64,000 bases of DNA, taken from positions 62,001 to 126,000 of the forward strand of contig JAIVFJ010000116.1 in NCBI GenBank assembly GCA_025765615.1, in the 5' to 3' direction. The notes under the pieces are model-generated. The model was not told the origin of the DNA. It saw only the letters and a list, made by a program, of their open reading frames with translations, and ran no database searches. Every line of letters starts with the position of its first letter. Within the stretch, counting starts at the first letter, position 1. Shown one piece after another: positions 8,594 to 56,870 of the stretch. Made by a program: the position numbers and the translations under genes. This DNA comes from Zopfochytrium polystomum. Its lineage: Eukaryota > Chytridiomycota > Chytridiomycetes > Chytridiales > Chytridiaceae.

Positions 8594-8892
8594 TGTTATG
8601 AATCACCCTCTGGAAACCTCTGGAACCTTCTAGGACATTCCTTCATGGAACCTTGTGGAACCTTCTGGAACCTACTTTGCTTTCCTGACTTGTCATTGGT
8701 ATCATTGGTATCATTGTATTACTAATTGCTCTTTCTGGAACTTCTTTGAGTCTTGACAAGGAAGACTCTCAAAAGGTATAAAAGGGGGATGGGGGACCTG
8801 TCCCATTCCTCAAGTGAATTATTGTTTTCAATACAATCATCACTCCTCTCAGTTCCTTGTCTGCCTTGTCCTGTCCTGCCCTGTTCCTGACA
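8594..8892 (+). mobile_element. Gypsy LTR (older copy, 299 bp)
   Basis: Starts TGTTATGAATCACCC and ends CCTGTTCCTGACA like the LTRs of the 50338 element. It has a TATAAAAG box at 8778-8785, the AAGTGAATTAT segment at 8812-8822, and seven perfect nGAAn/nTTCn pentamers. It is followed by the same leader, including the 11-nt complementary primer site at 8895-8905. The left flank CTGAG has no partner because the element is truncated on the right. Confidence 0.9.
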
Positions 8893-11292: not shown

Positions 11293-12736
11293 CTAACGCG
11301 CACGACAAAGACCAATATGACTAAGATAATAAGCACCTAAAGCAGCTGGTAATGATTTTGTAAGATAATCTGCTGGTTGCTCGCCACCAGGAATCCATTC
11401 CAGTCGAATCACTTGTCGATCAACCAGTTCCCTGATATAGTGATACTTAACCAGAATATGTTTTGACCTATTAGTGTAGAGATCATTTGAGCTCAAATTG
11501 ATAACGCCTTGGTTGTCAGTATAGATTGGAATAGGAGTCGGGGACAGGAGCATAAGTGCTGTGTGCTGTTGTGAGATGGTCTCCAGTTCTCGTCCTAGTT
11601 CTGAGACTGCAACGTATTCTGCTTGCTGAGGTGAAAGCATAACTGTAGGACTGCGAGTTGATGCCCAGCTGAGAGCGGTATTTCCAAACAAAACGAAGTA
11701 GCCAAGTTGTGATTTTCCATCAGCATGAACTCATGAGCAGCATCCGAGTAGCCGAAAATTCCAGACCCTGTGTTGCAATAAAACAAACCATACTCACGTG
11801 TACCATTGATGTATTGAAGCACACGAATGAGGATCTGCAAGTGGTGTTTGCTTGGGTCCTTGCTGAAGGCGCCAAGATATGAGACTGCTGGTGCCAAGTC
11901 TGGTCGGGTGTGTGTTGCCAAATAGTTGATGCCACCAAGGATTGCTTGGTAGAGCTGTTGATTTGCTGTGGGTTCATCATTTTCTCGAGGTTGAAGAGTG
12001 AGAGGACTGGGGAGAGCAGTTACTGCTGTCTTCTTTCCATTGATTAGGTCTGCATGGCGTTGGAGTAACTCTTTGGTGTAAGCTTGTTGATGCAAGTAGA
12101 TGCCAGTCGGCGTTCGATGAACTTCCATATTCTGTATGGTCTTGATATGACCTAGTTCACAGAGCTTATAGAACGATTTTAGCAAGGTGATGGCAGAGGT
12201 GATTTCCTCTGTGTGCCCAAAGAAACAAATATCATCGACATAGATAGCAATGAAAATAATACGTTCCTTTGTGTGCTTGAAGAGGTTGCACGGATCTGCT
12301 GCGCTTTGTTGGTAGCCGGCAGACTTGAGACGACCGATGAGTTCCTGGCACCAACAACGCCCTGCTTGCTTGATACCGTTGACAGCTTTGTGCAAAAGCC
12401 AGACTTTGCCATCAGAACAGTAGCCATCCAGTTGCTCCATGTAGATGGGGACATCAGGTTTGCTGTTAAGGTGGGCATTGCTAATATCGACCATGCCTGT
12501 GTCCCAACCGTTTGAGGCTGTCATAGCAAGGAGCCATTGTAGGCTATTGATGCGAACAACAGGAGAGTGAGTATTCCAGAAATCAATGCCACGACACTGT
12601 GTAAAGCCCTTAGCCACTAGACGGGCGCGAAAGCGCTCAATGCTGCCATCTGGTCGGAGCTTGACCTTGTAAACCCACTTGTTCTGCACGACATTGACAT
12701 TCTTGGGTCGATCGGCGATTTTTAGCATAGTGGTAG
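11293..12736 (-). pseudogene. Copia reverse transcriptase-RNase H, frameshifted
   Basis: The upstream part (about 11700-12728) reads as copia RT: KWVYKVKLRPDGSIERFRARLVAKGFTQ, then IAIYVDDICFFG (YVDD catalytic motif), then the LGYLATHTRPDL-type connection. RNase H follows in another frame (11293-11691) with the SPQQAEYVAVSELGRELE and IPIYTDNQGVINLS motifs. The two parts are separated by a frameshift near 11690. The N-terminal polyprotein is missing: an LTR of family B abuts the RT start. A 149-bp LTR follows downstream. Non-functional. Confidence 0.85.
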
Positions 12737-14221: not shown

Positions 14222-14585
14222 CTAGATTGACGTCAAATCGTTGTCAGATCGCCAGATCGTCGTCAGATTGACTCCAGATTGTTCGTTGCCAGACCACCAG
14301 ATCACCGCCAGATAGTCTCCAGATTTTCGGATCGTTGCCAGAACGCCAGATTGCTACCAAATTGTCGTCAGATCGTCGTCAGATCGTCAGATCATCGTCA
14401 AATTGACTCCAGATCGTGGCCAGACCGTCAGATCGTCGTCAGAACGCCAGATTGCTGCCATGTTGTCGTCAGATTGTCATCTGATTGTCAGATCATCGTC
14501 AGATTGACTCCAGATTGCCGCTAGATTGACTCCAGTTTGCTGCTGGATTGACTCCAGATTGCTGCCAGATCGCCTCCAGCAATTG
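14222..14585 (+). repeat. Minisatellite of CAGATTGACTCCAGATTG-type units
   Basis: About 360 bp built from interleaved short words (GTCGTCAGAT, CGCCAGAT, TTGACTCCAGATTG) repeated head to tail with variation. It sits between the LTR A fragment and the LINE ORF1-like frame, which begins inside its end. Confidence 0.8.
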
Positions 14586-31853: not shown

Positions 31854-32161
31854 TGTCAGGAACAGGGCAGGACAGGACAAGGCAGACAAGGAACTGAGAG
31901 GAGTGATGATTGTATTGAAAACAATAATTCACTTGAGGGATGGGACAGGTCCCCCATCCCCCTTTCATACCTTCTGAGAGTCTTCCTTGTCAAGACTCAA
32001 AGAAAGTTCCAGAAAGAGCAATTAGTAATACAATGATACCAATGATACCAATGACAACAAGACAAGTCAGGAATGCAAAGAAGGTTCCAGAAGGTTCCAC
32101 AAGGTTCCATGAAGGAGTGTTCTAGAAGGTTCCAGAGGTTTCCAGAGGGTGATTCATAACA
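31854..32161 (-). mobile_element. Solo gypsy LTR (308 bp) with target duplication
   Basis: Plus strand TGTCAGGAACAGGG ... GTGATTCATAACA, the reverse of the LTR at 50338. It is flanked by CATTG on both sides (31849-31853 and 32162-32166). It holds eight perfect nGAAn/nTTCn pentamers and the AAGTGAATTAT start-site segment. It lies about 0.9 kb after the TOP1 stop. Confidence 0.95.
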
Positions 32162-35659: not shown

Positions 35660-37520
35660 GCCAAGCGTACGCGTTCTGGGAAAACCTACCTCACAAGCAC
35701 AACCAAACTCATGCAGAAGCCATGTTGGGTAAATGGTCCAAGGAGTGGATTGCAGCAGAGCAGACTGAGATCAATGCCCTTTGTGTTATGAATCACCCTC
35801 TGGAAACCTCTGGAACCTTCTGGAACATTCCTTCATGGAACCTTCTGGAACCTTCTTTGCATTCCTGACTTGTCTTGTTGTCATTGGTATCATTGGTATC
35901 ATTGTATTACTAATTGCTCTTTCTGGAACTTTCTTTGAGTCTTGACAAGGAAGACTCTCAAAAGGTATAAAAGGGGGATGGGGGACCTGTCCCATCCCTG
36001 AAGTGAATTTTTGTTTCCAATACAATCATCACTCCTCTCAGTTCCTTGTCTGCCTTGCCCTATCCTGCCATGTTCCTGACACTTTGCACTTTAGCAGCCT
36101 TTGAAGTTGTGAAATGGCCCACCAACATCAACTTCATGCAGAACAAATGGGTCTTCAAGGTCAAACTTCGACCAGACAGCAGCATTGAGCACTTCTGTGC
36201 ACGACCTGTGGCTAAGGGCTTCACTCAACGTCATGGCATTGATTTTTGGAATACTCACTCTCCTGTTGTCTGAATCAACAGTCTTCGTTGGCTCATTGCC
36301 ATGGCGGCTGCAAACAACTATTGTTGACAACAGCAACACGTACCTAAACAGCATGCTCGATGTGCCCATTTATGTGGAACAGCCAGACGGCTACCACAGT
36401 GATGGCAAAGTCTGGCTACTGAAGAGAGCTGTTAATGGTATCAAGCAAGCTGGCCAGTGTTGGTGCCAAGAACTGATTGGCCACCTGAAGTCGAATGAAT
36501 ATCAGCAAAGCACAGCAGACCCTGTATCCTCTTCCGTCAAGTGGATGGAAAAGTCATTTTCATTGCCATCTATGTTGATGATATTTGTTTCTTTGGGGAT
36601 TCTGGGGAGATCACCTCTGCCATCCCACTGCTATAATCTTGTTACAAGCTCTGCTAAATAGGAACAATCAAAACCATCCTCAATATGCAACTGGAACACC
36701 ACCACAATGGAATCTTCTTGCACCAGAAAGCCTATATCAAGGAGTTACTTCAATGCCATGCCAACATTATCAACAACTGCACTGCAGTAACTGCCCTTCC
36801 CAGTAGTCTCAATCTTCAGCCACATGGGATCGACGAAGCAGCTGCAGACCAGAGACTGTACCAGGCAATCCTTGACGGCATCAACTACCTTGCAACACAC
36901 ACGCAACCAGACCTTGCCCCAGCAGTTTCATACCTTGGTGCCTTCAGCAAGGATCCCAGTGAGCAACATATGAAGATCCTTATTCGGGTTCTCAAATATC
37001 TCAGTGGTAAGAGTGAGGATGGTTTTTCTATTCTCACAACTGCACAGATATAGCTGGTTACTCTGACGCTGCCCAAGGTGTCCACTGAGATGGGAAATCA
37101 CAGCTTGGCTACTATGTTCTATTTGGAGGAACAGCTATTAGTTGGACATCTGTTCAGAGCAGCACTCTCATGCTGTCACCGCAGGAAGCTGAATATGTTG
37201 TCTGAACTGGGACGAGAATTTAAGGCACTATCCCAAATCTACTCAGCACTTCAACTTCTGTCTCCAACTCCTCTTGTCATCTACACTGACAACAGTGGTG
37301 TGATCAACCTCCGTTCAAATGATCTTTACACCAATTGGTCAAAGCATTTCATGGTAAAGTATCATTTTATTCAAGAACTTGTGGAACAAAAAGTAGCACA
37401 GCTTGAATGGAATGCTGGAGGAGAACAGCCTGCGGACTATATGACGAAATCTCTCTCAGCTGCTCTCAGTGAATACCATTTGAGTCGCATTGGCCTTTGT
37501 TTCTTTTCTTACCTCTGATT
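35660..37520 (+). pseudogene. Copia RT-RNase H, split by a gypsy solo LTR
   Basis: Frames read LGKWSKEWIAAEQTEINAL up to 35783, then resume after the solo LTR with CTLAAFEVVKWPTNINFMQNKWVFKVKLRPDSSIEHF (36082 on), GYHSDGKVWLLKRAVNGIKQAG, HQKAYIKELLQCHANII, DGINYLATHTQPDLAPAVSYLGAFSKDPS, and RNase H LVIYTDNSGVINLRSNDLYTNWSKHF to 37518. Frameshifts and stops interrupt it; the YVDD-region frame is shifted. It is related to the 11293-12736 copy. A polypurine tract (37771-37780) and LTR B follow. Confidence 0.85.
35784..36081 (+). mobile_element. Solo gypsy LTR (298 bp) nested in copia RT
   Basis: TGTTATGAATCACCC ... CCTGACA flanked by CTTTG at 35779-35783 and 36082-36086. It has eight perfect nGAAn/nTTCn pentamers in two runs of four separated by TTCAT, plus a TATAAAAG box. 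The start-site segment reads AAGTGAATTTT, one change from the young copy. Confidence 0.95.
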
Positions 37521-49699: not shown

Positions 49700-49809
49700 C
49701 TTTGGATGCCCTTCCTAAGTAAACACCTGACTCTCGGGAGGCAAGATCCACTCACACCAAAACCTCCTCATCCTCTCCTTGAACAGCTTGATGATTCCAA
49801 CGTCCAATG
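49700..49809 (-). pseudogene. Possible pogo/Tigger transposase fragment
   Basis: The minus strand encodes LDVGIIKLFKERMRRFWCEWI just outside the LTR. This resembles the 'LD.GvI..fK..yr' motif downstream of the second catalytic Asp in pogo/Tigger DDE transposases. The stretch is short and ends in a stop. Confidence 0.35.
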
Positions 49810-50222
49810 TGCAAACAGTCCACTCTGAGTGAGTGAGTGGAAGGAGTGAATGAAGTGGAGATGTGTGTTTGTGGGTGGTCCTTCTCCGCAACTTGGAGAA
49901 AAAGAGAAAAAACTCCGTTATGAATAAATGATACATAATGATGATATGCACGCTGTAATAGTTGCTGGGCAAGCGTGACTGGCACAGGGCAAAAACCTCT
50001 CCTTTATTATCTGCTTGAGCAGAGGAGGAGGAAAACTGTTGACACTGGGTTTCTGTTCCACTTAATACTCGGAGTATTTGTCATCAGCGCAAGCCAGCGC
50101 CCAGGTCTGCATTGGCAGTGGCTCGCTCTCCCATGGGCATTGTGAGAACGATAACTGGCAGTCACAATAGGTTTGGGTCCGTCTCATGCCTCTTGCTGCT
50201 AACCAGTCAGTTCTGCCTAACA
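49810..50222 (-). mobile_element. Copia LTR family C, inverted partner
   Basis: The minus strand begins TGTTAGGCAGAACTGACTGG (ending at 50222) and ends TGTTTGCA (49810). It is nearly identical to 54391-54804 but in opposite orientation. Flanks CAATG and TCGAC do not match, so it is not a simple solo insertion. Confidence 0.85.
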
Positions 50223-50370
50223 TCGACCATGTTCTGGATTTCCTTTTGGTCACCCCCGCAAACAAGGAAATCCAAAAAGGATGAAACTTTGTGGTCCAAG
50301 GAAGAAGTTTTAAACTCAGCAACATCCAAAGCCCTTGTGTTATGATTCACCCTCTGGAAACCTCTGAAAC

Positions 50371-50510
50371 CTTCTAGAACATTCCTTCATGGAACCTTCT
50401 GGAACCTTCTGGAACATTCCAGAACATTCCTTCATGGAACCTTCTGGAACCTTCTGGAACCTTCTAGAACATTCCTTCATGGAACCTTGTGGAACCTTCT
50501 GGAACCTTCT
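50371..50510 (+). promoter_or_regulatory. Heat shock element array (24 perfect pentamers)
   Basis: On a strict 5-bp grid the sequence alternates nGAAn and nTTCn. Runs are three units (50371-50385), eight (50391-50430), eight (50436-50475), then GGAAC-CTTGT-GGAAC-CTTCT-GGAAC-CTTCT to 50510 with one mismatch. TTCAT spacers keep the register. Three or more alternating pentamers make a canonical HSF trimer site, so this is an exceptionally long one. The motif match is direct; heat induction is inferred. Confidence 0.9.
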
Positions 50511-50534
50511 TTGCTTTCCTGACTTGTCTTGTTG

Positions 50535-50627
50535 TCATTGGTATCATTGGTATCATTGTATTACTAATTGCTCTTTCTGGAACATTCTTTGAGTCTTGAC
50601 AAGGAACATTCTCAAAAGGTATAAAAG
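50535..50627 (+). promoter_or_regulatory. CCAAT-like motifs, proximal HSE pairs and TATA box
   Basis: Two ATTGG motifs (reverse CCAAT) lie near 50537 and 50546. GGAACATTCT occurs at 50579-50588 and again at 50603-50612, each one inverted pentamer pair. TATAAAAG is at 50620-50627. In older LTRs the second pair reads GGAAGACTCT, so only the young copy has it intact. Confidence 0.8.
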
Positions 50628-50654
50628 GGGGATGGGGAACCTGTCCCATCCCTC

Positions 50655-50665
50655 AAGTGAATTAT
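50655..50665 (+). promoter_or_regulatory. Predicted transcript 5' end / self-primer
   Basis: AAGTGAATTAT lies 35 bp after the first base of the TATA box, the expected start-site distance. It is exactly complementary to 50738-50748. In Tf1/sushi-type elements the first 11 nt of the transcript anneal to the primer-binding site and prime reverse transcription. Confidence 0.75.
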
Positions 50666-50737
50666 TGTTTCCAATACAATCATCACTCCTCTCAGTTCCT
50701 TGTCTGCCTTGTCCTGTCCTGCCCTGTTCCTGACATC

Positions 50738-50748
50738 ATAATTCACTT
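50738..50748 (+). other. Primer-binding site, self-priming type
   Basis: ATAATTCACTT starts two bases after the 5' LTR. It does not begin TGG as tRNA-primed sites do. The complement matches 50655-50665 over exactly 11 nt and no further on either side. The older copy has the same pair (8812-8822 and 8895-8905). Confidence 0.75.
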
Positions 50749-50775: not shown

Positions 50776-51699
50776 ATGTCTGACCCAAACAACACCTTCC
50801 CTGATGCAACTGCCTTCCAAGCCTTGATGGACCAATTACAAGCCCTTTCAAGACAGACACACCAACTTCAAGAACAAGTCCTTCACCAGCAGCACCAGCT
50901 TCAACAACAACTTCACCAACAAGAACATCAAGCTCTTCCCCTGCCCCAAGCCAACCAAGCAAGAGAGCCCAAGGTTCCCAGCCCTGACAAGTTCACTGGG
51001 CTGGCCAAAGACCTTAGGAACTTTATGGCCACTGTGGAGAATGTCATCCTTCTCCAACCTTCAAGATTTCCCAGTGAGCAAGTCAAGGTTCTTTTCACAA
51101 GCACCCTCCAGTCTGGTCAAGCTCAATCATGGTACAGATCTCTCCCAAGCACACCCACCACCCTGCAAGAACTCTGGGAGGGGCTGGAGGCTACCTTTGG
51201 TGACCCCTACGCATCTTGGACAGCAAGATCCAAGCTCAAGCATATCAAGCAAGGAAAGCAATCTTGTGTGGCCTACACCAACCAATTCAAGCAACTAGCC
51301 AGAGACTCTGGATACAATGATGCAGCTCTGATGGAGCTGTACCATGATTGTCTCCATGAGTCCATCCAAGACATGCTCTCCCAGTCTCTGCACATCCCTG
51401 AGACCTTGGAAGAGTACATTCTCCTTGCCATCAAGATTGACAACAGACTCTACTCCAAGAGGCTGAAGCAAAGACAAGTAGGAACTACATCAAGACCTAC
51501 CCCAGTCCCTCAAGCTCTTACAGTTCCTGAACCCATGCAAGTGGATGCAGTTGAGACACTTCCTAAGGGTCCTCTGAGCCAAGAGGAGAAAACAAGGAGG
51601 GCCCAGCAGGGACTGTGTTTTTACTGTGGCTCCAAGGAGCATGCTGTCAAGGACTGCCCAAGGAAGAAGCACCCAAACTCCCAGGTCCAGGCTCACTGA
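50776..51699 (+). CDS. Gypsy Gag with CCHC zinc knuckle
   Basis: ATG at 50776, 307 residues, stop TGA at 51697. Gln/His-rich N-terminus (residues 20-60), then a retrotransposon Gag domain (PDKFTGLAKDLRNFMATVENVILLQPSRFPSEQVKVLFTSTLQSGQAQSWYRSL... LEATFGDPYASWTARSKLKHIKQGKQSCVAYTNQFKQLARDSGYNDAALMELYHDCLHESIQDML). Near the C-terminus is CFYCGSKEHAVKDC, a CCHC knuckle. It forms the virus-like particle in the cytoplasm and binds the element RNA. The pol-like frame overlaps its end by about 85 bp in the -1 register. Confidence 0.95.
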   Translation: MSDPNNTFPDATAFQALMDQLQALSRQTHQLQEQVLHQQHQLQQQLHQQEHQALPLPQANQAREPKVPSPDKFTGLAKDLRNFMATVENVILLQPSRFPSEQVKVLFTSTLQSGQAQSWYRSLPSTPTTLQELWEGLEATFGDPYASWTARSKLKHIKQGKQSCVAYTNQFKQLARDSGYNDAALMELYHDCLHESIQDMLSQSLHIPETLEEYILLAIKIDNRLYSKRLKQRQVGTTSRPTPVPQALTVPEPMQVDAVETLPKGPLSQEEKTRRAQQGLCFYCGSKEHAVKDCPRKKHPNSQVQAH

Positions 51700-54023
51700 G
51701 GGGCAATTCCCTGGACCCTCCTCCAAGCTGCCCCTGTTTCATCACCACCACCAGCACCACAAACACCTCAGATTCCAAGCCCCACCAACTCACCATGGAT
51801 GTCAAGATTCAACTCTCACCCAAGTCAACCATCACAACCAAGGCCCTTATAGACTCTGGATCATCCTGCAACATCATTGATGCCACCCTTGCCAAGTCTT
51901 GTGCCATTCCCACCATCAAGAAATCCACACCCCTCAAGGTCCACTTTGCCAATCATGCTCTGTTCAAGGAAATCAGCCATGAAACCAAGCTAAACCTCCA
52001 CATCCAAGACTTTCCACCATCCATGGTCAACCTGGTAGTATTGGATCTTGGCTCACCCGCATTCTCTGTCATCCTGGGATTACCATGGCTGCAAGCCCAG
52101 AACCCTGACATTGATTGGGTCACTGGTCAAGTCCAACCTCCACCAATTGGAACAGTCACCCAAAACTCAAGTCAAGCCTCCAAGTCTCATGCTCTCAAGT
52201 CCCTGATTCAAGGTTCTCAGCCTAGTATCCAAGGTCAACCACAAATGACAGCTCCAGTATCAGCCTGCAGCTCACAGATCCCAGCCAAGATTCAAATTTC
52301 ACAGTTCACAGTTCATAGTCAAGATTCCAGTACAGCTCATAGAGCTCACAGTCATGGCCAAGTCTGTAGTTCACAGAACCCACAGTCAAAGATTCAAGTA
52401 CCACAGTTCACAGTCCAAATTCAAGATTCAAGCTCCACAGCTCACAGTCTTTGCCAAGAACAGAACCCTCAGTCAAAGATTCAAGAATCGCAGTTCCCAG
52501 TCAAGAATTCAAGCCCCCCCACTGATGAGCACAGAAGGACAGACCTTGCACCTGAAGGGGGAGATGGTTTCACCCCACCATCCAAGACACACCTTTCACT
52601 GTTTCCTGACAGTGTGTGGGCCCATGCTATTTCCAAGGACCCCAAGCCTCACAAGATTCAAATCAGCCAAGAGGAGGAAAAACTTGAGATACTCAAGACA
52701 AGGCATGATGCAGCAACAGCTGGACACCCAGGAGAGCACAAGACATATGAGCTTGTTTCCAGAGACTTCTACTGGCCGGGCATGAGGAAGTACATCAAGA
52801 ACTATGTCAGCAGCTGTGAAACCTGTCAAAGAAACAAATCCAGCAGACACAAGCCCTATGGACTTCTGGAGCCCCTCCCAATCGCCATCAGCCCTTGGTC
52901 ATCAATATCCATGGACTTCATTGTGAAACTTCCCCCATCCCATGGATTTGACTCTATCCTTGTTGTCATCTGCAGAAGGACAAAGTTGGCCCATTTTATC
53001 CCCTGCACTGAGAATATAGATGCACAAGGAACAGCAGACCTGTTTTTGCAGCACATATTCAGGCTCCATGGGCTGCCTCAGTCAATCATCAGTGACAGAG
53101 GACCTCAGTTCAGATCTCAATTTTGGAAAGCACTCACAGCAGCCCTTGGAATCAAGTCTCAACTGTCAACTGCTTATCACCCTCAGACTGATGGACAAAC
53201 AGAAAGAACAAACCAGACTCTGGAGCAGTATTTGAGGTGCTATGTCAGCTATCAACAGGATGATTGGCCCACCCTCCTTCCGCTGGCAGAATTTGCTCTC
53301 AACAATTCTCTCCACTCAAGCACCCAGCTATCTCCTTTCTTTGCAACCTATGGCTTCAATCCAAGAGGAGATCTTCTGGGACAAGAGACCCTATCCAATG
53401 TCCAAGCTCCTGCTGTGACTTCACACTTGCATAAGCTCAAGATCATCAGCACCTTCCTGGACTCCACCCTGAAGCAAGCCCAAGAAGATGCCTCAAGATT
53501 CGCCAACACTCACAGAATGGACCATGACCTTGCTGTGGGTCAGCAAGTTTGGCTTCTGAGGAAGAACTTGCAGACCAAAAGACCAAGTCCCAAGCTAGAC
53601 AACCTCAAGTTGGGACCTTTCAAGATCTTGGAGCAAATCAATCCAGTCACCTTCAAGCTGGATCTCCCTGCATCCATGAAGATCCACCCAGTTTTCCATG
53701 TCAGCCTTTTGGAGAAGTTTGTGGCCAATTCCATTCCAGGCAGAGTTGTTCCTCCTCCTCCTCCAGTTGAGGTAGAAGGTGAAGAGGAATTTGAGGTTGA
53801 ACAAATCTTGGATGCCAAGTGGTTTGGAAGGACACTCAAGTTCCTTGTTAAGTGGAAAGGTTACTCAGATGCTGACAACACCTGGGAACCTGAGTCAAAC
53901 CTCACTCGCTGCCAAGACCTTCTGCTCAAGTTCAAGACCAGGTACCCCACCAAGTTGCAGAAGAGGCCTAAAAGGGGAGATGATGTTATGAATCACCCTC
54001 TGGAAACCTCTGAAACCTTCTAG
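51615..54023 (+). CDS. Gypsy protease-integrase-chromodomain polyprotein, no RT
   Basis: Open frame of 802 codons; the first codon here is GTG, so it is probably translated by -1 frameshifting from gag. Protease ALIDSGSSCNIID is near residue 80. Residues about 190-340 are a Gln/Ser-rich linker of repeated SQ..SKIQ-type motifs. Integrase follows: zinc H-H-C-C (RHDAATAGHPGEHKTYELVSRDFYWPG...SCETCQRNK, near 365-405) and DDE residues in SMDFIVK, ISDRGPQFRSQFW and HPQTDGQTERTNQTLEQYL. A chromodomain (EVEQILDAKWFGRTLKFLVKWKGYSDADNTWEPE, about 726-766) probably targets integration to modified histones. The RT and RNase H expected between protease and integrase are missing without a break in frame. 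The last 13 codons lie in the 3' LTR. Confidence 0.92.
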   Translation: MFLLWLQGACCQGLPKEEAPKLPGPGSLRGNSLDPPPSCPCFITTTSTTNTSDSKPHQLTMDVKIQLSPKSTITTKALIDSGSSCNIIDATLAKSCAIPTIKKSTPLKVHFANHALFKEISHETKLNLHIQDFPPSMVNLVVLDLGSPAFSVILGLPWLQAQNPDIDWVTGQVQPPPIGTVTQNSSQASKSHALKSLIQGSQPSIQGQPQMTAPVSACSSQIPAKIQISQFTVHSQDSSTAHRAHSHGQVCSSQNPQSKIQVPQFTVQIQDSSSTAHSLCQEQNPQSKIQESQFPVKNSSPPTDEHRRTDLAPEGGDGFTPPSKTHLSLFPDSVWAHAISKDPKPHKIQISQEEEKLEILKTRHDAATAGHPGEHKTYELVSRDFYWPGMRKYIKNYVSSCETCQRNKSSRHKPYGLLEPLPIAISPWSSISMDFIVKLPPSHGFDSILVVICRRTKLAHFIPCTENIDAQGTADLFLQHIFRLHGLPQSIISDRGPQFRSQFWKALTAALGIKSQLSTAYHPQTDGQTERTNQTLEQYLRCYVSYQQDDWPTLLPLAEFALNNSLHSSTQLSPFFATYGFNPRGDLLGQETLSNVQAPAVTSHLHKLKIISTFLDSTLKQAQEDASRFANTHRMDHDLAVGQQVWLLRKNLQTKRPSPKLDNLKLGPFKILEQINPVTFKLDLPASMKIHPVFHVSLLEKFVANSIPGRVVPPPPPVEVEGEEEFEVEQILDAKWFGRTLKFLVKWKGYSDADNTWEPESNLTRCQDLLLKFKTRYPTKLQKRPKRGDDVMNHPLETSETF

Positions 54024-54381
54024 AACATTCCTTCATGGAACCTTCTGGAACCTTCTGGAACATTCCAGAACATTCCTTCATGGAACCTTCTGGAACCTTC
54101 TGGAACCTTCTAGAACATTCCTTCATGGAACCTTGTGGAACCTTCTGGAACCTTCTTTGCTTTCCTGACTTGTCTTGTTGTCATTGGTATCATTGGTATC
54201 ATTGTATTACTAATTGCTCTTTCTGGAACATTCTTTGAGTCTTGACAAGGAACATTCTCAAAAGGTATAAAAGGGGGATGGGGAACCTGTCCCATCCCTC
54301 AAGTGAATTATTGTTTCCAATACAATCATCACTCCTCTCAGTTCCTTGTCTGCCTTGTCCTGTCCTGCCCTGTTCCTGACA
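53984..54381 (+). repeat. 3' LTR of the young gypsy element
   Basis: Identical to the 5' LTR except at position 9 (53992 A versus 50346 T). The heat-shock array occupies 54017-54156 and the TATA box 54266-54273, so it could drive transcription outward towards the FET-like gene. Confidence 0.97.
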
Positions 54382-54390
54382 CCTTGCCAG

Positions 54391-54804
54391 TGTTAGGTGG
54401 AACTGACTGGTTAGCAGCAAGAGACACGAGACGGACCCAAACCTATTGTGACTGCCAGTTATCGTTCTCACAATGCCCATGGGAGAGCAAGCCACTGCCA
54501 ATGCAGACCTGGGCGCTGGCTTGCGCTGATGACAAATACTCCGAGTATTAAGTGGAACAGAAACCCAGTGTCAACAGTTTTCCTCCTCCTCTGCTCAAGC
54601 AGATAATAAAGGAGAGGTTTTTGCCCTGTGCCAGTCACGCTTGCCCAGCAACTATTACAGCGTGCATATCATCATTATGTATCATTTATTCATAACGGAG
54701 TTTTTTTCTCTTTTTCTCCAAGTTGCGGAGAAGGACCACCCACAAACACACATCCCCACTTCATTCACTCCTTCCACTCACTCACTCAGAGTAGACTGTT
54801 TACA
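54391..54804 (+). mobile_element. Copia LTR family C, plus orientation
   Basis: TGTTAGGTGGAACTGACTGG ... AGTAGACTGTTTACA, 414 bp, the inverted partner of 49810-50222. Flanks GCCAG and CATCA do not match. It may be the 5' LTR of the copia fragment downstream. Confidence 0.85.
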
Positions 54805-55665
54805 CATCAGCGTGCCAGCTATCTGGCTGCATCAACCACAGATTGTAGCTCCGAAAAACACTCTCTACCACCAACAAACAGAATCAGCATAGCTCAAATT
54901 TAGAAACCATTTTGTTTGGGGGGCCCAAAATTTTCGACGCCCTCTCCCGGCCGACCCCGTCATTCAATCCGGGCTTGCTATAGTGCATTCAAAAGCCCTG
55001 AATCTCTTCTTTCCAACGAATTATCACAGAGCTCTCTACGTTGTCTCTACGGAATTTGATTAATCGCCAAAGTTAAAAAATGCCTCCTCAACTTTGAGTG
55101 ACATTGTCGCAACGGGGAGACGAGATCAGAGGACGCCCTTGCATACCCGTATTCTCCTGCTTCTGCTCTTTCCATTGATACCTAACGTGCCCCTCTACAA
55201 CGCCCACAGTAGGAGCTACAAGAGATTTTGATAAGGGGGTCCAAAAAGTCGAACTACCACTACCTCCACCATTTTTGTCCTTTCTTGTGTGACAAGTCAC
55301 CCCTGCTGGACACCAAATTGCTCTAAGTTCTCTCTATTCCGCTCTCCTACACTCTCCAAAGGAAAACACCACCAAAACTTTGATCCTCAGCCTGAAATTC
55401 GGCGCATGGTCACTATTCAACAGTGCCAACCTGCTATTCCGATTTCAGAATTTTCTGTCCATCAATCAGCTTGCAAAAAGCATTGTGTGCAATACACATC
55501 TTCTATTATGGACCATTTCTCCATCAACTACTGGTTTTCTCCTGCAACAGAGTCATCACTACGTGCAACCCAATACCATACTATAACCTGATACCTTTCC
55601 TGGCCTTGTCTGCAGCAACGCTAAGTTTCAATCTCTTAATTCTGATTTCTTAACTTCTCTCTCTG
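54805..55665. other. Unassigned region after LTR C
   Basis: No convincing frame. Short plus-strand frames at 55289-55653 may be decayed copia sequence. Nothing identifies a gene. Confidence 0.4.
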
Positions 55666-56870
55666 ATGATTTTACAGATTTTCCTGAAACTGACAACCCT
55701 CCCTCTTTCGAGCCTGTTGAGCCACCACTTGACTCTTACCGTCGATTATCCAACTCTCCTCCGCCAGGCTTCCAGGGGGGGACAGCCGCCATCATCTTCA
55801 ACAAACTCCTCAGATCAACCTCCAACTCTTCCCCAAGATATGGAAGACCATAATGACGATGACGACTATGGTTGGAACCCTGACACATTCGCTGTCGTCC
55901 TGGGCGAAGAGGAAGACGAACCTGAAGAGTGCCTAGCTCCAACAGCAGACCGCATAGCAGCATCCATCAACACTGAACTGGAGCCTGTCATTGAATCACC
56001 ACTTCCACCATCTGTCATTGTCAACATCAAAGATGCACCAAGTGGACTTTGCAAACCACTTGCAAATCGAACAATCACTCGCCATCTCTTGCGACTCTAC
56101 CTTGCATCAGCTAAACCAGAACCACGCTTTCCAAAGCGCTTCCCTCAAGAACCAATCCACCAATCACAACTCCCACCAGTGCCACGTTCCCACAAGGAAG
56201 CCCACGCATCAGACTATAACGAAGAATGGACTGCATCTGAGCTTGGGGAGCTTCACTCTCTCATGGATGAGCACAAGGTCTGGGAATGGGCAGTTCTTCC
56301 TCCTGGCAAACGCGCAATGTTCTGCAAATGGGTTTATGCCTATAAGCTCAACCCCTTTGGCTGGCTGAAGCGATGGAAAGCTCGCCTTGTTGCATGTGGA
56401 AACACCCAATGCGAAGGCATCAACTGCACAGACACCTTTTCTCCTGTCGTCCGGATCCAGGCCATCCAACTGCTCATTGCAATCAGCCTTGCTTTTGACG
56501 TCGAGTACCATAGCATGGATGTCAACACAGCCTACCTGTACACTTTTCTCAAAGAAGTCATCTACATGCATCCACCAAAAGGCCACAAGCAATTCACTCC
56601 AGATGGAAAGAAACTATTCTGCAAACTCCTCAAGAGCCTCTATGGACTCCATCATCTGGATGAAACTGGTTCCTGACCCTACGCAAGTTCATTGTTGAGA
56701 AACTCAGCTTCAATCAATCTCTTGCTGAGCCCTGCCTCTTCTTTCGAGTAGACTCTCAGCAACAAACGTTTGAAATCATCTTTGTCTTTGTCGATGACAT
56801 CAATGTCATGGCCAACACCCCAGCTCTTGTCGCAAAATTGAGGATGTTTTTTGTGCTGAGTACAGCGGAG
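55666..56870 (+). pseudogene. Copia linker and RT N-terminal half, truncated
   Basis: A frame of 336 codons contains an acidic linker (WNPDTFAVVLGEEEDEPEE), VIVNIKDAPSGLCKPLANRTI, then RT: WTASELGELHSLMDEHKVWEW, FCKWVYAYKLNPFGWLKRWKARLVACGNTQ, DTFSPVVRIQAIQLLIAI and HSMDVNTAYLYTFLKEVIYMHPP. After a frameshift at about 56676 it continues to FIFVFVDDINVMANTPALVAKLRMFF and ends at about 56870. The rest of RT and RNase H are gone. Host FET gene sequence begins almost at once. Confidence 0.85.

Follow-up and report, generated by a model that had tools for sequence, protein, structure and literature searches.

A large phased heat shock element array in the LTR of an abundant chytrid chromovirus, a likely target of the host heat shock factor

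The window, by which we mean the whole stretch of 64,000 nucleotides analysed here (G000:C116:62001-126000), comes from the Zopfochytrium polystomum genome (80.16 Mb in 761 contigs). It contains a retroelement with two long terminal repeats (LTRs), an array of heat shock elements (HSEs) in each of them, and three related one-block LTRs. The features are as follows.

50333..50337, + strand: target-site duplication CCTTG, left copy (sequence)
50338..50735, + strand: 5' LTR, 398 bp, TG...CA, 1 difference to the 3' LTR
50371..50510, + strand: main HSE array, 24 on-grid GAA/TTC pentamers in runs of 3, 8, 8 and 4 plus one single (sequence scan, shuffles)
50575..50587, + strand: proximal HSE trimer TTCtgGAAcaTTC (sequence, shuffles; all three cores perfect in 47 of 48 LTR copies)
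50604..50611, + strand: proximal HSE dimer GAAcaTTC (sequence; 13 of 48 copies have it in full, namely the subfamily of the window copy)
50620..50627, + strand: TATA box TATAAAAG (sequence)
50655..50665, + strand: AAGTGAATTAT, predicted mRNA 5' end and self-primer (complementary to 50738-50748)
50738..50748, + strand: predicted primer-binding site (PBS) ATAATTCACTT (complement of 50655-50665)
50776..51699, + strand: gag ORF, 307 aa (Retrotrans_gag, domain match)
51615..54023, + strand: protease, integrase and chromodomain ORF, 802 aa (domain matches)
52223..52533, + strand: stretch where the RT/RNase H part of a full-length relative is missing (alignment to C140 pieces)
53984..54381, + strand: 3' LTR, in which the array recurs at 54017-54156 (LTR comparison)
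54382..54386, + strand: target-site duplication CCTTG, right copy (sequence)
8594..8892, + strand: related one-block LTR; the same PBS letters and a gag ORF come after it
31854..32161, - strand: related one-block LTR
35784..36081, + strand: related one-block LTR

The 802-aa ORF matches a protease, an integrase, the Pfam domain SH3_Tf2-1 and a C-terminal chromodomain. Together with gag, these are features of a Tf1-like Ty3/gypsy chromovirus, while a search of the window copy for RT and RNase H domains gave no match. A relative on contig C140, which has the same kind of LTR and an array of 26 on-grid pentamers, shows RT and RNase H matches in the segment absent from the window copy. RT or RNase H domains are annotated in most of the protein relatives among the matches listed (120 of 1020). 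Because the C140-type relative has an RT, the family qualifies, by its domain content, as a Ty3/gypsy chromovirus and the window copy as a deletion derivative, which is non-autonomous. The first-pass annotation had placed HSE units inside a gypsy-type LTR, and this structural reading was right: the LTR is that of a chromovirus, with the array upstream of the TATA box.

The retroelement is itself nested in a long inverted-repeat element (49807-50222 and 54391-54807) with arms of 316 nt (98%) and 106 nt (97%), which is probably a DNA transposon or a foldback element. Elsewhere in the window, ORFs for a copia-type RT (RVT_2) are found at 11595-12728 (-) and 55666-56676 (+), and positions 14308-14579 hold tandem repeats of CGTCAGATC-like units with several overlapping periods.

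We found that all 24 GAA/TTC cores of the array, whose starts lie between 50372 and 50507, fall into a single residue modulo 5; counting the core at 50357 as well, 25 cores share this grid. The re-count bears out the earlier claim of 24 perfect nGAAn/nTTCn pentamers on a single 5-bp grid, and the two unbroken runs of eight that had been described were recovered at 50392-50429 and 50437-50474. They are flanked by strictly alternating runs of three (50372-50384) and four (50492-50509), with a lone on-grid GAA at 50482 between the second run of eight and the run of four. That the TTCAT spacers are one pentamer long holds for the first two gaps, which are exactly one TTCAT each; the third consists of TTCAT, the single GAA and TTGT. 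All 24 cores stay on one grid. Counting as a canonical HSE any series of at least three touching, alternating nGAAn/nTTCn pentamers, the LTR has such series of 3, 8, 8 and 4 in the array and a further one of 3 in its proximal part. In 2000 dinucleotide shuffles of the array, the longest run never exceeded 4 (8 in the array) and the on-grid cores never exceeded 8 (24 in the array). The array is not due to chance. Since tandem duplication is outside the model of these shuffles, they demonstrate non-randomness and not function.

Further pentamers had been noted just before the TATA box, and these are indeed present as the trimer at 50575-50587 and the dimer at 50604-50611. Within the 225-bp remainder of the LTR, the trimer was equalled by 7 of 2000 dinucleotide shuffles. 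Downstream of the TATA box, AAGTGAATTAT at 50655 is the exact reverse complement, over 11 nt, of ATAATTCACTT at 50738, two bases past the 5' LTR. Because of this 11-nt match to the PBS, in the manner of Tf1, we infer a transcription start at 50655, which is 35 bases downstream of the first TATA-box base. With this start, the array would extend from about -284 to -145, and positions -80 and -51 would correspond to the trimer and the dimer, respectively. The HSEs of the LTR are thus located upstream of the predicted start site, which is the ONSEN-like arrangement. The letters that follow the older LTR at 8594-8892 begin like the PBS of the window copy.

The family is abundant. A 35-base marker from the LTR, chosen so that it contains the trimer, was found with up to 3 mismatches at 1070 + 1107 = 2177 places in the genome, and its backwards control at 0. 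Similarly, a 6-pentamer pattern matched 2188 sites (backwards control 0), and a 7-pentamer pattern matched 994 and 993 sites on the two strands of the 80-Mb genome (controls 0 and 0); the first pattern with another letter spacing had 0 matches in the same genome. By comparison, the 7-pentamer pattern matched 41 stretches in a 257-Gb collection of prokaryotic contigs, and the 6-pentamer pattern 15 stretches in viral contigs. Since a three-block LTR has two long runs and a two-block LTR has one, we estimate the number of LTRs with a long run at roughly 500 to 990. On contig C1, the 6-pentamer places form 8 clusters, each of them an LTR of the window element's family, and of the 12 LTRs listed for this contig with an exact marker match, 6 have a run of at least seven pentamers. 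One HSP70-family gene occurs in four nearly alike copies (C171, C285, C191, C66), and there are other allele-like pairs as well; this suggests several haplotypes in the assembly, in which case the copy counts may be inflated.

Six elements (C116, two on C149, C210, C58, C110), of which the two on C149 are oppositely oriented and possibly reflect one duplication, share an LTR spacing of 3646-3647 bp and align with the window copy on both sides of the RT gap. The common spacing and alignment indicate that the RT-less derivative was copied, presumably by the enzymes of full-length relatives. A second, shorter form with an LTR spacing of 2872-2873 was seen in three copies (C142, C13, C59). The two recurring shortened forms, with the LTR pairs compared being 0-1 substitutions apart, suggest recent mobilisation in trans. 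Overall, when the two LTRs of an element were compared for nine elements, 0 substitutions were counted in seven cases and 1 in two, with the C58 pair compared untrimmed, so the family has been active recently. Judged by these sequences, the array-bearing chromovirus is young. Regularly spaced LTR markers were also observed on contig C6, with five places at an exact spacing of 3171 bp (C6:359962-372680) and four at 1725 bp (C6:235330-240539), representing either tandem arrays of the element or a feature of the assembly.

For the comparison of arrays, 48 distinct copies were used, including the best matches to a three-block LTR (L001-L030) and the first places on contig C1 (L031-L045), so the sample is biased by this choice. 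The region before the constant part of the LTR measures 80/81, 91, 136, 146 or 180/181 bp, apart from a truncated copy (63), an over-long cut (201) and a divergent copy with unrecognised boundary (190 or 80). Leaving aside copies that are truncated, untrimmed or have lost a single base, the length classes differ by 10 or 45 bp, steps that keep the grid. The number of on-grid cores ranges from 8 to 26, with values of 8-10, 18-19 or 25-26 per copy; copies whose grid is shifted by a one-base deletion have 18 or 23, and the truncated copy has 5. Identical LTR tails were found with one, two or three blocks, from which it follows that blocks are gained and lost. On a tree of the array-free part of the LTR, which is poorly resolved (13 of its 17 inner branches are open), array size requires at least 10 changes and shows no clear clustering, since shuffling gave an equally low number in 32 of 200 trials. 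The 13 copies with a complete dimer form the sole starred clade. We also considered that arrays might ratchet up in size, so that younger copies have bigger ones, and rejected this idea, as the tree, although poorly resolved and built on the biased sample, suggests repeated gain and loss.

No preferential conservation of the cores was detected. Variation affects 6 of 39 core sites and 40 of 254 others (p = 1.0; few changes and low power), based on 46 of the 48 copies for the array ends, with one truncated and one very divergent copy left out, and on all 48 for the tail. When the comparison was restricted to the 30 closest copies, variation was seen at 3 of 72 core sites, at 6 of 56 spacer sites (cores against spacers, p = 0.18) and at 13 of 258 sites elsewhere in the LTR (cores against these, p = 1.0). 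Nine of these 30 copies, including the window copy, have a broken pentamer at 50367. The case for a function therefore relies on the identity of the motif, its position, the independent trimer and the control with host promoters, and not on selection.

The host has heat shock factors (HSFs) that might bind such sites. Of 14 HSF-domain matches in the genome, four are nearly full length and without stops. The DNA-binding domain is open and matches the solved domains of HSF1, HSF2 and HSF4; the alignments with HSF2 and HSF4 have SFVRQLNMYGF in common with the host domain, which we take to be the recognition helix. The nearest proteins to the HSF L048 are from Zopfochytrium polystomum (85%, covering 60% of the query) and Cladochytrium tenue (71%, covering 69%).

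As a control, we searched the upstream regions of heat shock protein (HSP) genes for sites made of four alternating pentamers, allowing one mismatch. The regions were those of 15 of 58 HSP70 matches, the first 12 of 33 HSP20 matches and 2 of 3 HSP90 matches; some are alike and probably allelic, and the HSP90 pieces may stop short of the promoter. The four-pentamer site was present in 14 of the 29 regions, each time upstream of a TATA box, namely in 4/15 HSP70-family regions (C106, C215, and the alike and probably allelic C174 and C709), 10/12 small-HSP (HSP20) regions and 0/2 HSP90 regions. It was absent from the other 15 (11 HSP70-family, 2 HSP20 and both HSP90 regions). The same scan found no site in the 62,285 bases of the window outside the five LTRs, where one perfect trimer occurs, and none across HSF-gene loci totalling 44,544 bases, some of which overlap. 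GAAnnnTCnnGAAnnTTC is present in 13 of the 29 HSP regions, and the C106 HSP70 promoter has CTGGAACATTCT in common with the LTR trimer. The small-HSP promoters (L077, L079-L087) have in common a site of four pentamers, the second of which contains a mismatch. It begins 49-93 bp ahead of the first base of the TATA box and is a candidate for the host HSE consensus. Three perfect pentamers in a row were found in none of the 29 HSP regions. Hence, the same grid serves in the host heat shock genes; in perfect sites, the LTR surpasses them. Given the second-pentamer mismatch typical of the host sites, the LTR is not a plain copy of them.

Taken together, we consider it likely that the array is an HSF-driven enhancer of the LTR, which would respond to heat or to protein-damage stress. 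Trimers of the host HSF would bind side by side on the 24-pentamer array upstream of the TATA box, and the bound HSF would turn on the element RNA, with its predicted 5' end at 50655. HSF occupancy, induction by heat and a resulting rise in transposition are all expected on this model. The RT for the window copy would be supplied in trans by full-length relatives such as C140. With up to 26 phased motifs, runs of eight and an abundant element, heat would likely activate many array-bearing elements together.

An unlikely alternative is that the array is an LTR minisatellite, which grew as a 10-bp/45-bp repeat slipped or recombined and resembles HSEs without a present role. The labile array length, with one to three blocks on identical tails, and the lack of detectable constraint on the cores would fit this view, and slippage in any 10-bp periodic repeat would also give steps that keep the grid. 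However, the trimer and dimer near the TATA box are outside the repeat, a run of four and the trimer are already present in most one-block copies, and the repeat unit matches the motif of the host HSP promoters. HSF might also bind the array with development, such as zoospore formation or encystment, or another stress as the main natural trigger. This idea overlaps with the HSF-driven enhancer, since heat may work as well. HSFs serve other programmes in many eukaryotes and several HSF-domain genes are present in the genome, but the promoters that served as positive control are those of small HSPs and HSP70, which are classic heat targets, and we regard a mainly non-heat trigger as possible but doubtful. 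That the array acts mainly as a decoy, soaking up HSF across many copies without raising transcription of the element, seems very improbable to us. The high copy number and run count would suit a decoy, as would the overlapping NGAANNTTCNNGAAN-type sites (16 in the 5' LTR of the window copy compared with 1 in the window outside the LTRs), yet the sites are placed like promoter-driving sites, upstream of the TATA box and the predicted start, and chromatin may hide most copies.

Transposons with HSEs are already known. ONSEN is a copia element from a plant, whereas the family described here is a gypsy chromovirus from a chytrid, with 24-26 pentamers, known from its sequence; HSEs in the LTR are shared by both. 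MAGGY is a gypsy element, and Tf1 has a chromodomain; our ORF matches SH3_Tf2-1 and a chromodomain. ONSEN/ATCOPIA78 of Arabidopsis has been reported to be activated under heat by HSFA2 through HSEs in its LTR (PMC8376061). In Cryptococcus, the LTR elements TCN3 and TCN12 mobilise exclusively or almost exclusively at 37 C and have two and one putative HSEs, respectively, compared with the 24-26 pentamers found here; the available text of this 2026 paper describes heat shock activation of transposable elements via host machinery as undescribed in fungi (PMC12810828). The first-pass annotation knew of no fungal-type gypsy element with an array of this size. None was found by us either, in that the open-access literature, to which our search was mostly confined, gave no report of an LTR array of comparable size, but putative HSEs in fungal LTRs had already been described with TCN3 and TCN12. 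For Tf1 of fission yeast, the first 11 bases of the RNA are complementary to the PBS and serve in self-priming, and the RNA is induced by brief heat (PMC7175516). An 11-nt complementarity at the corresponding place can be read from the sequence of the window element, a candidate for such self-priming, while a large array like that in the window LTR is not mentioned for Tf1 in the available part of that paper. MAGGY of Magnaporthe is a fungal LTR element that has been linked to instability after heat shock, and the term "heat shock element" is absent from the available text on it (PMC3978060). Dense, overlapping HSEs are also present in Helitrons of Caenorhabditis, which hold many of the genome's sites and are bound by HSF-1 (PMC6927752), but these are DNA transposons and our element is an LTR retrotransposon.

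What sets the chytrid family apart is therefore the scale of its array, with heat activation as the expected consequence. The phased array, the predicted start, about 2000 LTRs and the HSP promoters as a reference make it an unusually clean candidate for heat activation of a fungal transposable element. If this holds true, dense HSE clusters are not peculiar to the Helitrons of nematodes, and a link between warming, HSF and transposition could be tested directly in a chytrid, a member of an early-branching fungal lineage.
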